DNA from: Halorubrum sp. CBA1229 | Lineage (GTDB): Archaea > Halobacteriota > Halobacteria > Halobacteriales > Haloferacaceae | Assembly (NCBI RefSeq): GCF_003721435.2 | Contig: NZ_CP054585.1 | Span: 2,852,001-2,916,000, forward strand | DNA length: 64,000 nucleotides | Direction of reading: 5' to 3' | Part shown: positions 12,371 to 26,908 of the stretch, piece after piece | How positions within the stretch are numbered: the first letter of the stretch is position 1 | How the letters are laid out: each line of letters opens with the position of its first letter | Made by a program: the position numbers and the translations under genes | Notes under the pieces: model-generated | Told to the model about the DNA's origin: nothing | Databases searched by the model: none | The model's input: only the letters and a program-made list of their open reading frames with translations

Positions 12371-13342
12371 ATGGACACGCGTCGCGCGCTGCTCGACGCC
12401 CTCGAGGACGGCCCCGTCTCGGGACCGGCGCTCGCCGCCGAGCTCGACGTCTCGCGGACGGCGGTGTGGAAGGCGGTCGAGGCGCTCCGCGAGGAGGGGT
12501 TCGCCGTCGAGTCGACGTCTGACGGCTACGCCGCGCCCGCCGACCCCGCGTACTGCGCGGCCGGGATCGAGTTCGGGCTCGACGCGCCGTACGCGGTGGA
12601 GTATCACGAAGGCCTCCCGTCGACGAACGACCGCGCCCGCGAACTGGCGGCCGAGGGCGCGGCGGACGTCGCCGTGGTCGCCGACGAGCAGACCGGCGGG
12701 CGGGGGCGGCTGGACCGGGAGTGGGTCGCGCCGAGCGGCGGCGTCTGGCTCTCGCTCGTCACGCGGCCGACGGTGCCGCCGGCCCGAGCGCCGCTTTTCA
12801 CCCTCGCCGCGGCGGTCGCGACGGTCGACGCCTGCCGCGAGGCCGGCGTCGACGCGCACATCAAGTGGCCGAACGACGTGCTCGTGGGCGCCCCCGACGC
12901 CTCGGTCGGTCGCGGCGGTCGCGGCGGCCGCAAGGTCGCGGGGGTCCTCACGGAGATGGAGGGGGAGGCCGACCGGGTCTCGTGGCTCGTCGCGGGCGTC
13001 GGCGTCAACGCCAACGTCGACGCCGAGACGCTTCCGGCGGGCGCGACGTCCCTCCGGGAAGAACTCGGGGAGCCAGTCGACAGGCGTCGGTTCGCCGCGA
13101 CCCTCCTCGAACGCTTCGCGGCGCTCGCGGGGACGCCGGACCGGACGGACCGGATCCTGCCGGCGTGGCGCGACCGGGCGAGCACGCTCGGGAAGCGGGT
13201 GCGGGTGGAGACGTCGACCGGGGCCGTCTCGGGGACCGCCGTCGACGTCGAGTCGCCGGGCGCACTCGTGATCGACACCGGCGAGGGAACGCGACGAGTC
13301 CACGCCGGTGACTGCGAGCACCTCCGAGACGCGGACGACTGA
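12371..13342 (+). CDS. birA: Bifunctional biotin--protein ligase / biotin operon repressor
   Basis: 323 residues from MDTRRALLDALEDGPVSG. A winged helix (PALAAELDVSRTAVWKAVEAL) occupies about residues 15-60. The catalytic domain follows, with STNDRAREL, the biotin/ATP loop GGRGRLDREWVAPSGG, and IKWPNDVLV, which are hallmark motifs. The C-terminal SH3-like domain is present. It attaches biotin to carboxylase carrier proteins and probably represses biotin genes through the HTH. Between the Lys-Trp-Pro-Asn motif and the next strand is a Gly/Arg-rich loop (GRGGRGGRK). Confidence 0.94.
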   Translation: MDTRRALLDALEDGPVSGPALAAELDVSRTAVWKAVEALREEGFAVESTSDGYAAPADPAYCAAGIEFGLDAPYAVEYHEGLPSTNDRARELAAEGAADVAVVADEQTGGRGRLDREWVAPSGGVWLSLVTRPTVPPARAPLFTLAAAVATVDACREAGVDAHIKWPNDVLVGAPDASVGRGGRGGRKVAGVLTEMEGEADRVSWLVAGVGVNANVDAETLPAGATSLREELGEPVDRRRFAATLLERFAALAGTPDRTDRILPAWRDRASTLGKRVRVETSTGAVSGTAVDVESPGALVIDTGEGTRRVHAGDCEHLRDADD

Positions 13343-15591: not shown

Positions 15592-15817
15592 GCGCCGATC
15601 GCCCCCCGAACCGGCTTTTCACCCCCGACGGCGACGGCGGCGGTTCTCCGGGCGAGGTTTCGGGGTCGTTCACGAGCCCGCGGACGAATCGCGACCGATG
15701 CCGTCGGGTGTGAGCTCCACAGAATCCGAACAGGTTCGGGGGTCGGTGACGGGCTTCTCCGCAGCCAGCAGATATATACCTCGACTGTTTAAATCAGCAG
15801 TTAGTCGGTAACCCAAC

Positions 15818-22898: not shown

Positions 22899-23060
22899 CC
22901 CTCGACCCGTGCCGACTGCACTCTCCCTGTGCGCGGCACGCGGCTTTTATTTCTCTCTGAGGATACCGACGGTGGCGACTATCGAGAGTAGGACGAAATT
23001 GGGTGGCTGGGGAGTCCCAGCCCACCAATCCCGCACGGCCAAAGACCGTGCGCGTTGTAG

Positions 23061-23092
23061 GTGGGCCAACACGGATTTGAACCGTGGACCTC
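23061..23092. repeat. Left attachment site (tRNA-Ile 3' fragment)
   Basis: These 32 bp are identical to 26065-26096, which covers the acceptor 3' strand, T arm and variable-loop side of tRNA-Ile plus one flanking base. Just left (23001-23060) are two hairpins, one perfect (CGCACGG, 7-nt loop, CCGTGCG, about 23032-23052). The rest of 22899-23060 has no gene I can support. Confidence 0.92.
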
Positions 23093-23203
23093 AGTGCCTC
23101 TACCGCACGATTTCGGCACTTGCGCCTGCCTCGTAACGCTCGATAGGCAGTAGCTCTCGGGGAGTGAGCCTCACCCAATTTGTGGTTCCGGATTCGATTG
23201 AGA

Positions 23204-24223
23204 ATGAACGACAATCTCGAACCCATTGAGGCGGCTGAGGCAAAGGAGATGTATCTCGAACAGCGCAAGCAGGAGGTGTCAGAGTCAACGATCCAGGCTC
23301 ACCACTATCGGCTCAAACATTTTGTCCGGTGGTGTGAAGAGCAAGAGGATCTGCACAATCTGAACAATCTAACGGGACGCGATCTCCAACGGTACTCGAT
23401 GTGGCGGCGCGAGGATGGTGACCTGAATAACGTCACGATGGTCACGCAGCTGTCCACACTACGAGTCTTCATCAAATGGTGCGAACGCATTGATGCCGTG
23501 GAAGATGGCCTCCACGATAAGATCATTCTCCCTGATTTGTCCCGGCACGAGGATCAGCGTGACGCGATGCTCGATTCTGAGGATGCCAAACAGCTACTTG
23601 AATATATGCGACAATTTGAATGGGGATCTCGGACCCACGCACTCATTGAGCTTCTTTGGTATGGTGGGATGCGTATTGGTGCGGCGCACGGACTCGATTT
23701 AGACGACTACGACCCTGACGAGCAGTACGTAGAAATCCGTCACCGACCGGATACAGAGACACGACTGAAGAATAAGAAAGACGGTGAACGGTTTGTCGGC
23801 TTATCAGCTCAGGTCTGTGACGCCATAGATGCGTATATCAAGTACAAACGCATGGAGTCGGAGGATGACTTCGGACGAGAGCCGCTGTTCACCAGTAATC
23901 ACGGGCGAGTAAGCAAAAGTTCACTCCGAGATAATATCTATCGTGCTACCCGTCCATGCGTTTATACAGGCGATTGTCCTCACGACCGTGAGATAGACTC
24001 GTGCGAAGCGATGGGTCGAGACAAGGCCAGCCTATGCCCTTCGAGCGTCAGCCCTCACGCTATTCGCCGAGGGTCGATTACGTACCATCTGACGGAGGAC
24101 GTTCCCGAAAAGATGGTCGGTGATCGGATGAATGTCAGTCTGGACGTATTGGAGAAACATTACGACCGACGAACTGAGGAAGAGAAGGCGAGCCAGCGGC
24201 GCGATTATTTAGATAATATCTAA
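23204..24223 (+). CDS. Tyrosine recombinase (integrase) of the tRNA-Ile element
   Basis: 339 residues from the ATG at 23204; a TTG eight codons upstream is weaker. A core-binding SAM-like domain (about 1-100) precedes the catalytic domain. Visible catalytic residues are Arg157 (YGGMRIGAAHGLDLDDY), His285 and Arg288 (SPHAIRRGS) and Tyr320 (LEKHYDRR). The usual second His (GH) is Asp here (VGDRMNVS), which I recall as common in haloarchaeal integrases. A Cys-rich insertion (CVYTGDCPHDREIDSCEAM) may bind zinc. It starts 111 bp inside the left att site. Confidence 0.94.
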   Translation: MNDNLEPIEAAEAKEMYLEQRKQEVSESTIQAHHYRLKHFVRWCEEQEDLHNLNNLTGRDLQRYSMWRREDGDLNNVTMVTQLSTLRVFIKWCERIDAVEDGLHDKIILPDLSRHEDQRDAMLDSEDAKQLLEYMRQFEWGSRTHALIELLWYGGMRIGAAHGLDLDDYDPDEQYVEIRHRPDTETRLKNKKDGERFVGLSAQVCDAIDAYIKYKRMESEDDFGREPLFTSNHGRVSKSSLRDNIYRATRPCVYTGDCPHDREIDSCEAMGRDKASLCPSSVSPHAIRRGSITYHLTEDVPEKMVGDRMNVSLDVLEKHYDRRTEEEKASQRRDYLDNI

Positions 24224-24253
24224 TTGATATTTAAATAATATGTGAATAGATTG

Positions 24254-25774
24254 TCATAAACCCTCATCTGGAAGGTGTGGTTTGTCGTTGAATCGACTGC
24301 TAATATACGTAATAAGTGAATCATTTTCAGCGGCTTCGTCGATCGCCTCTCGTAAATGAGCGTCTGAATCGTAGTTGTCGAAGAACATTGCCCAGTAGTC
24401 GCGTTCGTTGAATGAGAATACAGGCATGTCATATCCATAATTTGTTCGCCAGAGCAAGTAGTCTTCAAATCGGTCCAGTTCCTCTGTCTGATTTGCCAGC
24501 TCGAACAAGTCAAACAAAGTTATGAGTAGAACTCTGTCCTCCTCGGCAACCGATTCGTAAAGCTCACTCATATCAAAAATACGGTCCATCCGTTTGTTCT
24601 GAGAGAATAACGTTGGAAGTAGGCCATCAAGAACCACTATTGTTCCAGATTCTTTGTCTCTTGGTGACTTCATACCAGCAAGATTGTAGGGTAAGTTATG
24701 GTCGTGTTCTCTCAAGAAATTTAGCGTATTTTCTCCCTGGGCTATCGCTTCCTTTGTCTTCTCTTTAAATCGTGTTTTTGCCGTCTGAAGATCATTTGGA
24801 ATCTTCCGGAAAATGGGATGTGATTTGATTTCAATACACCAGAATGAATCCTCAAAGAATAGTAACCCATCAGTTTCTCTCGGGTGAGGGTCATTGTATT
24901 TGAAGGACTGTATTAGATTACGACTGTCAAATTCAGCAAAGGCTTCTAAGGTTAATTCTTCAACAATATCCCCTTTTCTACGATCTTCAACTGTTCGTAT
25001 TTCCTCGTGCTGTTGGAATAGCTCCTCAATTCTCATCTGCGTCGTGCTTACTAACAAAGAAGGAAACGGCACTAAGATCCTGTCTTCCTTTCCTTCTACC
25101 TCAAAGAGAGGCGTACTCAAAAATTGGTAACGAGAGTATTTTTCGTCTCGGTCATACCTCACGGAAAGAAAATTAATCATGCTATTAGCTACGTCAATTC
25201 GATCTGAAATGGAGAATTTTTGAGCGAATGGCTGATCTTCTGTCTTACTCAAGAATGCGCTAATCAACTCGCTTCGAGAAAACTCAATACAGGCAAGCCA
25301 CTTATTTTGAAAAGCCTCACTCGGTACCTCGTACTCGGTAGAGTTGACAAATTCTTTTTTATCTTCGAATGTGTGGAATGTCGAACCTATATCCAGATCA
25401 TTAGCCCTTTCAGTGATTAGATTGTATATGAAAGCCTCCATAGAAATAAGATCAATCGCAGAATACCCGATTTTATTTCGTATCTCATCGCTTATATCTG
25501 CGTAGCGGACATTAAGATAGAGTTGATAGTGTTGTACATCTGGGTCATCAGGATACATCAAAATAAATTGATTGAACACATTTTCCGGCTGGTCGGATGA
25601 CAATCCCTCGTTCTCCCAATAATTCTGAATCGATTCGTGGGTGACCTCCTCGTCAAATATCGCTCCAGATTGCAAAATACTATCAAAATATCCTCTCAAA
25701 AGCATTCGCCTCTCGGTGTTGTACCTGTTGGCACCTGAAAGAAAAGAGAGATTTTCCATGCCTTGATCGGTCAT
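24254..25774 (-). CDS. Unrecognised 506-residue protein with PD-(D/E)XK-like nuclease motifs
   Basis: I recognise no named family. The C-terminal half shows a restriction-endonuclease-like core: Glu in RRKGDIVEELTLEAF (about 266-271), Asp at about 300 in PRETDGLLFF, and a Glu-x-Lys at about 314-316 in FWCIEIKSH. The spacing D-x13-E-x-K fits PD-(D/E)XK enzymes, near NERD- or Mrr-like types. The N-terminal half is helical and acidic, without a signal peptide or membrane segment. No methyltransferase or helicase is adjacent. Codon use is AT-rich and unlike the host. As sole cargo of an integrated element, a defence or inter-element role is plausible, but this is inference. Confidence 0.72.
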   Translation of the reverse strand: MTDQGMENLSFLSGANRYNTERRMLLRGYFDSILQSGAIFDEEVTHESIQNYWENEGLSSDQPENVFNQFILMYPDDPDVQHYQLYLNVRYADISDEIRNKIGYSAIDLISMEAFIYNLITERANDLDIGSTFHTFEDKKEFVNSTEYEVPSEAFQNKWLACIEFSRSELISAFLSKTEDQPFAQKFSISDRIDVANSMINFLSVRYDRDEKYSRYQFLSTPLFEVEGKEDRILVPFPSLLVSTTQMRIEELFQQHEEIRTVEDRRKGDIVEELTLEAFAEFDSRNLIQSFKYNDPHPRETDGLLFFEDSFWCIEIKSHPIFRKIPNDLQTAKTRFKEKTKEAIAQGENTLNFLREHDHNLPYNLAGMKSPRDKESGTIVVLDGLLPTLFSQNKRMDRIFDMSELYESVAEEDRVLLITLFDLFELANQTEELDRFEDYLLWRTNYGYDMPVFSFNERDYWAMFFDNYDSDAHLREAIDEAAENDSLITYISSRFNDKPHLPDEGL

Positions 25775-26064
25775 GTCTTATTATTCTGATTTTTGACTGA
25801 TAAAGAATTATCGAATATTATATCATCTATTGATTGATCCAGATGGACTGAGTTCAAGAAAATTCGGTGAGAGATCTACCCTGAATTGTACTCCATTGAG
25901 GCAGCGACTATTTCTAAATGGGAGACAGCGTGGACGCTCGCGAGTATTGTGGTTCAAATCAACTGAGAAAGACGCTTCTCTTCGGTTTGTAGTCCAACGG
26001 AAATTGGTGGCCGGGGAGGATTTGAGCCGCAAGGGCCCTCGAATAGGCCCCGCGCTTCGCGCGA

Positions 26065-26096
26065 GTGGGCCAACACGGATTTGAACCGTGGACCTC
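26065..26096. repeat. Right attachment site within tRNA-Ile
   Basis: Identical over 32 bp to 23061-23092; positions 26066-26096 are the 3' part of the intact tRNA-Ile. About 64 bp before each core a second conserved block occurs (AAATTGG, then GGGGAG; 22996 and 26001), so similarity extends beyond the core. The stretch 25775-26064 has no supportable gene; it holds the promoter side of the nuclease gene and short palindromes (GCGCTTCGCGC, about 26052-26062). Confidence 0.92.
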
Positions 26097-26139
26097 CCGG
26101 TTATCAGCCGAGCGCTCAACCTGACTGAGCTATTGGCCC
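26066..26139 (-). tRNA. tRNA-Ile (anticodon GAT)
   Basis: On the minus strand the acceptor arms GGGCCAA and TTGGCCC pair fully. The anticodon stem CTCGG/CCGGG encloses CTGATAA, giving GAT. The T arm is CACGG, loop TTCAAAT, CCGTG. Discriminator A, no CCA encoded. The gene is intact despite serving as the integration site. Confidence 0.97.
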
Positions 26140-26245
26140 AGGTGAGCGCATTCAGTCGTTGCGCGGGTAGGATTTTAAGGGTTTCCTTTCGTCACTCCCC
26201 CGCCGTCTCGCGGTTTCGACGCCGGGCGACCCGACGGTCTCGCGG

Positions 26246-26908
26246 TCAGTCGGTTCGCTCGGAGTCCTCGTCCTCGACCGTGTAGTCGACGTCGACCACG
26301 TCGTCAGCGCGATCCGGGTCGTCAAAGCGATCGCCGCCGTTTCCGCCGCCGCTGTCGGTCGCCCCGCCGGCGCCGCCCGCGCCGGGGAAGTCGTCGGGAT
26401 CGTCGCCCGAGGGATCGCCGTCGAACCCGCTCCCGCCGAATCCGCCGCCGCCCATCGTGAAGCCGGCCCCGCTGCCGTTGCCGTCGCCGGGGAACCCGCC
26501 GATGTACACGTTGCCGGAGGCGAAGCCGTCGGTCTCGCTGTCGATGTACGGCACCACGACGTACTTTTTGAGCGCCATCCGGATCGGGACCCGAGAGAGC
26601 GGGAACGCGAGCAGGAAGCCGACCGCGTCCGTGACGAGCCCGGGGGTGAGCAGGAACGCGCCGGCGGCGATCAGCAGGCCGCCGTCGAGCAGCTCGTCCG
26701 TCGGCGGTTCGCCGCGGGCCAGCTTGCGCTGGACGCGCGCGAGCGTCGCCCGGCCCTCGGCGCGCAGGAGGAGCATGCCGAGCACGGCGGTCAACACGAC
26801 CAGCGCGACCGTGACCGCCCACCCCAGCCGCGTCGCGACCACGATCAGGAACAGCGCGTCCACGAGGGGGACGACGAGCAGCAGCGCGAGCAGCGTACGC
26901 GGGCGCAT
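26246..26908 (-). CDS. FxsA-family membrane protein
   Basis: 220 residues. The first about 130 form the FxsA domain with three or four hydrophobic segments (LLALLLVVPLVDALFLIVVA; VTVALVVLTAVLGMLLLRAEG; LLIAAGAFLLTPGLVTDAVGFLLAFP). The rest is a long Gly/Asp-rich tail ending VDYTVEDEDSERTD. FxsA was named for phage-exclusion suppression in E. coli; the function here is unknown. The tail is longer than in bacterial members. Confidence 0.86.
   Translation of the reverse strand: MRPRTLLALLLVVPLVDALFLIVVATRLGWAVTVALVVLTAVLGMLLLRAEGRATLARVQRKLARGEPPTDELLDGGLLIAAGAFLLTPGLVTDAVGFLLAFPLSRVPIRMALKKYVVVPYIDSETDGFASGNVYIGGFPGDGNGSGAGFTMGGGGFGGSGFDGDPSGDDPDDFPGAGGAGGATDSGGGNGGDRFDDPDRADDVVDVDYTVEDEDSERTD

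Follow-up and report, generated by a model that had tools for sequence, protein, structure and literature searches.

How did an AT-rich block with room for only two genes come to lie at a tRNA gene of this Halorubrum genome, and what does the gene that accompanies its integrase do? In the window, i.e., the whole 64-kb stretch of DNA that was analysed, an exact 32-bp direct repeat (23061-23092 and 26065-26096) brackets 2,972 bp of unique DNA, with a repeat-to-repeat period of 3,004 bp. No third copy with up to three mismatches was found in the window, and the count was 0 in 100 shuffles. ARAGORN places a tRNA-Ile(GAT) at 26065-26139 on the minus strand, so that the right repeat is the 3' end of this tRNA gene; Rfam matched the tRNA alone, an antisense plastid match falling far below threshold. 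The G+C content is 0.41-0.53 inside the block versus about 0.70 in the flanks, and the element is single-copy in a check of its whole genome. Between the repeats, just two ORFs are convincing, one for an integrase and one for a 506-aa protein; they are convergent, with their stop codons 30 bp apart. The earlier note had described an AT-rich block of about 3.0 kb between identical 32-bp repeats, a tRNA-Ile target, and a tyrosine recombinase and a 506-residue protein as the sole genes, and all of this holds. The features are the following.

22984-23060, minus strand: original host tRNA-Ile trailer (double hairpin), separated from the tRNA by the element (fold z-score; relatives)
23061-23092, no strand: attL core, the left 32-bp repeat copy, a displaced tRNA-Ile 3' end (repeat search, shuffles)
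23204-24223, plus strand: SNJ2-type tyrosine recombinase (integrase) of 339 aa, transcribed from the attL side into the element (Pfam, SNJ2 identity, catalytic residues)
24254-25774, minus strand: predicted PD-(D/E)XK nuclease of 506 aa, its N-terminal region helical; oriented towards the integrase gene
24704-24976, minus strand: predicted nuclease core, residues 267-357, NERD-like/Can2-like (NERD 267-357; Can2 profile match 270-324)
24824-24877, minus strand: putative catalytic motif E300-x-D302 ... E315-x-K317 (six-homologue alignment; alignment with Can2 E276/D278, PMC7969007)
25924-26018, no strand: conserved right end of the element (87% identity to its G012 counterpart despite a different cargo)
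25996-26064, minus strand: element-borne substitute for the tRNA-Ile downstream (trailer) region (GGTGGC(T/C)GGGGAG kept at the same tRNA distance)
26065-26096, no strand: attR core, the right 32-bp repeat copy, 3' end of the intact tRNA-Ile (ARAGORN, repeat search)
26065-26139, minus strand: intact tRNA-Ile(GAT) (ARAGORN, Rfam)

The tRNA-Ile locus was located in 48 congeners via the neighbouring FxsA gene, and the junction is readable in 47 of them (L073 ends too early; L115 reaches 66 bp past the tRNA). In several congeners, the outer left flank of the window abuts an intact tRNA-Ile directly. For instance, window positions 22980-23092 joined to 26065-26300 are collinear, without gaps, with positions 12870-13188 of G035, where the position of the CBS and Amphi-Trp genes relative to the tRNA-Ile is as in the window. 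Similarly, the intact tRNA-Ile of G020 directly adjoins sequence matching the outer left flank. Compared in this way, both junctions are natural empty sites and the block is an insertion at tRNA-Ile, which gives it the marks of a tRNA-targeted integrative element: direct repeats, one of them the 3' end of an intact tRNA, and natural empty sites. Its mobility is well supported by such comparison. The earlier note had named a block shared by all relatives, with host-like base composition, as what would speak against a mobile element; instead, the 506-aa cargo is absent from the locus in all 47 congeners with a readable junction, and the G+C content is foreign. The two congeners that have a relative of the 506-aa protein have the gene elsewhere, away from the tRNA-Ile locus. 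The comparison of tRNA-Ile loci across related strains that the note had proposed also reveals that this site is occupied by other cargoes in G019 and G012 (see below). Just left of the tRNA-Ile in L086, L101, L107 and L112 lie ends resembling those of integrase-bearing elements; an integrase of the window lineage was not found in the fetched stretch of these four loci, and the ends are possible scars of past insertions.

The integrase (ATG at 23204, stop at 24223, 339 aa) carries the Phage_int_SAM and Phage_integrase domains of the SNJ2-type family (PF00589, 4e-11; PF02899, 3e-10; PF13495 likewise above the Pfam cut-off). The Natrinema virus SNJ2 integrase is 44.1% identical to it across residues 1-339, and those of HRPV-9, HHPV-4 and Halfgib1 are 42-45% identical. 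Since at least 30% identity to the SNJ2 integrase over at least 60% of the length defines an SNJ2-type integrase (PMC8371274), the window protein belongs to this type. Its catalytic residues R157, K189, H285, R288 and Y320 are invariant among six elements, and the enzyme is intact as judged from its sequence. The two annotated accessory proteins of SNJ2 (Orf2/Orf3) are absent from the window element, and many SNJ2-like viruses are without accessory proteins as well (PMC8371274). The window genome holds six further relatives of this integrase, one of them 52% identical at 1.63 Mb (G000:C1:1629897-1630901).

Related integrases are found at the same tRNA with other genes. In G019, a 2,802-bp element at this tRNA-Ile encodes an integrase of 72% identity and two different small ORFs. 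In G012, the integrase is 91% identical, the block on the attL side is 83% identical over window positions 22992-24227 and the right end is 87% identical over 25924-26018, and between these shared ends lies an unrelated, IS-interrupted cargo that includes a transposase-like ORF. By sequence, these two comparisons therefore reveal a conserved integrase with conserved ends and exchangeable DNA in the middle: the integrase and the ends are the chassis, and the cargo has been exchanged. C-terminal integrase remnants lie beside the tRNA-Ile with other ORFs in G023 (82% identity), G051 (61%) and G049 (73%), and larger elements with integrases of the same family occupy tRNA-Phe (7.2 kb), tRNA-Arg (9.3 kb) and tRNA-Lys (5.2 kb). 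Some alternative cargoes match LmuB and PtuB weakly; these matches may be coiled-coil noise and were set aside. In seven congener loci (L137, L138, L140, L141, L144, L146 and L148), two SNJ2-type integrases stand face to face, 0.6-3 kb apart with a small cargo between them, a recurrent architecture that is mostly found away from detected tRNAs. In G007 (L120:8154-8426; tRNA-Phe at 15632), three consecutive copies of the tRNA-Phe 3' end, spaced 136 and 119 bp apart, adjoin an SNJ2-type integrase and resemble the scars of several integrations.

The insertion also changes what follows the tRNA. Congeners have in common a stretch of about 75 nt downstream of the tRNA-Ile that folds into two hairpins. 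The host copy in the window (22984-23060) has a fold z of -4.84, and sequence matching it sits directly downstream of the intact tRNA-Ile in relatives. The first hairpin varies with apparent compensatory changes among 45 distinct Halorubrum sequences (alignment read by eye), a stricter motif of the trailer is found once in the genome, and the double hairpin has no Rfam match. The substitute brought by the element (25996-26064) retains GGTGGCCGGGGAG at the same place relative to the tRNA and is predicted to form two short hairpins, with a stability not above that of shuffles. As the element cuts the tRNA from its host trailer and brings a substitute, insertion swaps the tRNA end and the downstream region together. 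The trailer may serve as a terminator or a processing signal.

Turning to the cargo, relatives of the 506-aa protein are rare and sporadic: with the window genome included each time, they were counted in 3 of 146 near genomes, the wider samples giving 5 of 391 for the class, 4 of 392 for the order and 4 of 247 for the phylum. One additional relative lies on plasmid pHG3 of Haloferax gibbonsii. An initial scan of genome contigs without an alignment returned no relatives; an alignment-based scan found them in H. laminariae, H. persicum and Natrinema ejinorense. Viral contigs gave no match in two scans by degenerate patterns, for which the 506-aa protein or the alignment was used, and the phage collection contains no relative. 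Near-full-length homologues are present in two distant archaea, G473 (31% identity) and G579 (24%).

Several lines point to a nuclease. Residues E300, D302, E315 and K317 are invariant in all six aligned homologues, the most distant being 24% identical. The profile matches Can2 (7bdv) at E = 0.0012 with the E-x-D aligned on the catalytic residues E276/D278, the double mutant of which is inactive (PMC7969007). Pfam NERD (PF08378) is matched by three homologues (E = 0.014, 4.8e-4 and 1.2e-3; 16.3, 21.1 and 19.8 bits), all below the gathering cut-off of 22.1. An AlphaFold2 model, which was poor with a four-sequence alignment as input and improved once the two distant homologues were added, has low confidence (mean pLDDT 55, pTM 0.61). 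Its core, predicted at the same low confidence, comprises a helix (257-283), three strands (287-291, 301-306 and 310-317) and a helix (329-356), so that the E/D-x-D ... E-x-K motif of the PD-(D/E)XK superfamily falls on a predicted alpha-beta-beta-beta-alpha core. The top Foldseek matches are mostly PD-(D/E)XK enzymes (Cdn1, McrC, Can2, BstEII), none at E < 1e-3. A nuclease fold is likely, and the identity of the protein as a rare, stand-alone PD-(D/E)XK nuclease with an intact motif is fairly well supported. Shedu is a single-gene nuclease system, and its domain SduA_C (PF14082) and NERD belong to the same superfamily and match weakly on the same stretch. The alignment members miss both Pfam cut-offs, however, and differ from these families in their N- and C-terminal regions; SduA_C reaches a best E of 0.0073 in two other members, the window protein itself has no SduA_C match at E ≤ 1 and no PADLOC Shedu match, and an SduA_C family search in 97 relatives gave no match but is uninformative, its controls being silent too. 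Neither window protein has a PADLOC-DB match at E ≤ 1, and no NCBIfam model matches the cargo. A PADLOC HamB1 match (9e-4) was set aside, as it belongs to another alignment member. The earlier note's description of the cargo as a putative nuclease that matches no recognised system agrees with the invariant motif, the Can2 profile match and the NERD matches below cut-off on the one hand, and with the silence of PADLOC and NCBIfam on the other.

The neighbourhoods of the homologues give a mixed picture of its role. In H. laminariae, the neighbours are SLFN/AlbA_2 and transposases, and on pHG3 of H. gibbonsii a PADLOC-matched helicase. In G579 they are housekeeping genes, so a defence association is not uniform, and no partner gene is conserved across the homologues. 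In G473 (L152:6238-7957), two nucleotidyltransferase/HEPN-type (MNT-HEPN) pairs lie immediately upstream of the homologue, the second being Pfam-confirmed. Because there is no modification or antitoxin partner, a lone nuclease would have to be restrained until triggered. This restraint, the carriage on a mobile element and the partly defence-like neighbourhoods together make a single-gene antiviral or anti-plasmid effector our best guess, which we rate as slightly better than an even bet.

Putting these observations together, we propose a minimal, cargo-swapping SNJ2-type integrative element that delivers a single-gene, probably anti-virus, predicted nuclease (probability of about 0.62, judged from sequence). 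The integrase would recombine a circular form of the element with the 3' end of the tRNA-Ile, the insertion restoring the tRNA and supplying the substitute trailer. The integrase and both ends would form the conserved chassis, and the DNA from the integrase to the right end the exchangeable cargo, here one stand-alone gene combining a NERD/Can2-like catalytic domain with a helical N-terminal region. This nuclease would most likely be triggered and act, as a single gene, against competing viruses or plasmids. No replication, transfer or virion gene is identifiable in the element; its spread would therefore have to use excision, which we infer to occur at present, followed by uptake, or carriage by another element, e.g., a pleolipovirus using the same site.

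The main rival to a role in defence accepts the same element and has the nuclease serve it, either by excluding competitors from the tRNA-Ile or by stabilising the element through damage to cells or circles from which it is lost; a general role against viruses is then not assumed. The heavy contest for this site among related integrases and proviruses, the position of the 506-aa cargo as the sole non-integrase gene and the rarity of cargo-bearing elements all suit such a reading. We nevertheless consider it unlikely, as the homologues in the distant archaea G473 and G579 lie away from the element and the site, with no integrase in the examined stretch, and the element encodes no immunity or antitoxin partner. 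A little less likely again is the decay of a larger SNJ2-type provirus or plasmid into a fixed remnant, the nuclease being a leftover rather than a selected cargo. The absence of replication and structural genes fits decay, which is common at this site to judge from same-lineage integrase remnants (L097, L100, L110), and the six SNJ2-type integrases elsewhere in the genome could act on the element. Yet neither gene is truncated and the att repeats are exact, and independent decay would hardly produce a second compact element of the same lineage with different genes (G019) and the same ends around another cargo (G012).

The identity of the nuclease itself has a competitor, in which its PD-(D/E)XK fold is degenerate and the 506-aa protein binds DNA or has a regulatory role instead. 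All matches are indeed sub-threshold and the structural model is of low confidence, but the conservation of all four acidic/lysine positions down to 24% identity and their alignment with the proven catalytic residues of Can2 make this the least probable of the three. The minimal element with a predicted defence nuclease is thus retained as the preferred reading.

Larger elements use the same site. Those of G042 (14.7 kb) and G047 (18.1 kb) are located at this tRNA-Ile and bounded by 14-bp repeats, GTGGGCCAACACGG, which form the first 14 bp of the attL repeat in the window and are the core common to the tRNA-Ile proviruses. Their integrases share 44% identity with the window integrase. The VP4 spike precursor of Halorubrum pleomorphic virus 12 has a counterpart of 29% identity in the G047 element, and further products match PHROG families, for which reasons we call these elements pleolipovirus-like proviruses. 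In G012, the small element stands in tandem with such a provirus, the end of the one being the start of the other, and over the 1,110 bp that start at the shared core, identity to the end of the G047 provirus is 94%. Archaeal elements are known to integrate in tandem at a single locus (PMC8371274), and the tandem in G012 could allow the small element to exit along with a virus. No homologue of the G047 spike was found in the genome of the window. The tRNA, the nested 14-bp core, a related integrase and one tandem case in common with the proviruses make it possible, though unproven, that the element is a pleolipovirus satellite. A bolder proposal is a whole family of such satellites, with a two- or three-gene SNJ2-type chassis that is excised or carried with viruses and exchangeable single-gene antiviral effectors, here from a new PD-(D/E)XK nuclease family. 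We regard it as improbable; if true, satellites with the same 14-bp tRNA core as betapleolipovirus-like proviruses would repay their host with antiviral effectors. A satellite of a pleomorphic archaeal virus was not found in our literature search.

Parts of this picture are already known, namely tiny cryptic elements (PMC6563490), SNJ2-type integrases (PMC8371274, PMC13107129) and Halorubrum islands with only the integrase in common (PMC11078007). The element resembles the recombination module of betapleolipovirus SNJ2 (PMC8371274, PMC13107129) in the full-length similarity of the integrase, its SAM-like N-terminal and Phage_integrase domains, the tRNA 3'-end target and a nested 14-bp core as short as that of SNJ2, but differs by the lack of Orf2/Orf3, replication and virion genes, by its 32-bp repeat and by its size (3 kb versus 17 kb). 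NitUzo-E2, a cryptic integrated archaeal element of 2.6 kb with four proteins (PMC6563490), is likewise tiny, has an integrase and att repeats, and lacks a recognisable gene for replication, whereas the window element is haloarchaeal, has an SNJ2-type integrase and only two genes, and exchanges cargo between conserved ends. According to the part of the source available to us, the islands of Halorubrum ezzemoulense are of low G+C, conflicting islands at one locus have the integrase alone in common, and restriction-modification genes reside on integrase islands only (PMC11078007). The window element shares with them the low G+C and an integrase common to differing cargoes; unlike the multi-gene islands described there, it has two genes, and that part of the source describes no two-gene, lone-nuclease element (PMC11078007). 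The CRISPR ancillary nucleases Can2 and Cdn1 (7bdv, 9u49; PMC7969007) have a motif that can be aligned at E276/D278 and E-x-K, but the 506-aa protein has no predicted CARF domain (no Pfam match), its N-terminal half being helical in a low-confidence prediction. The two-gene SNJ2-type chassis with swapped cargo, the nesting of the pleolipovirus core and the nuclease family appear to be new, as no description was found in the literature searched.

The locus illustrates how compact a site-specific archaeal integrative element can be: one integrase, one effector and two ends. The nuclease family is small and uncharacterised, and extends to distant archaea within the phylum. The site shared with pleolipovirus-like proviruses and the tandem arrangement raise the question of whether pleomorphic archaeal viruses have satellites. 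Finally, because the effector slot is swapped while the integrase and the ends stay, the locus could be used for the discovery of archaeal effectors, the DNA between window-type integrases and the tRNA-Ile in other strains providing a list of candidates.
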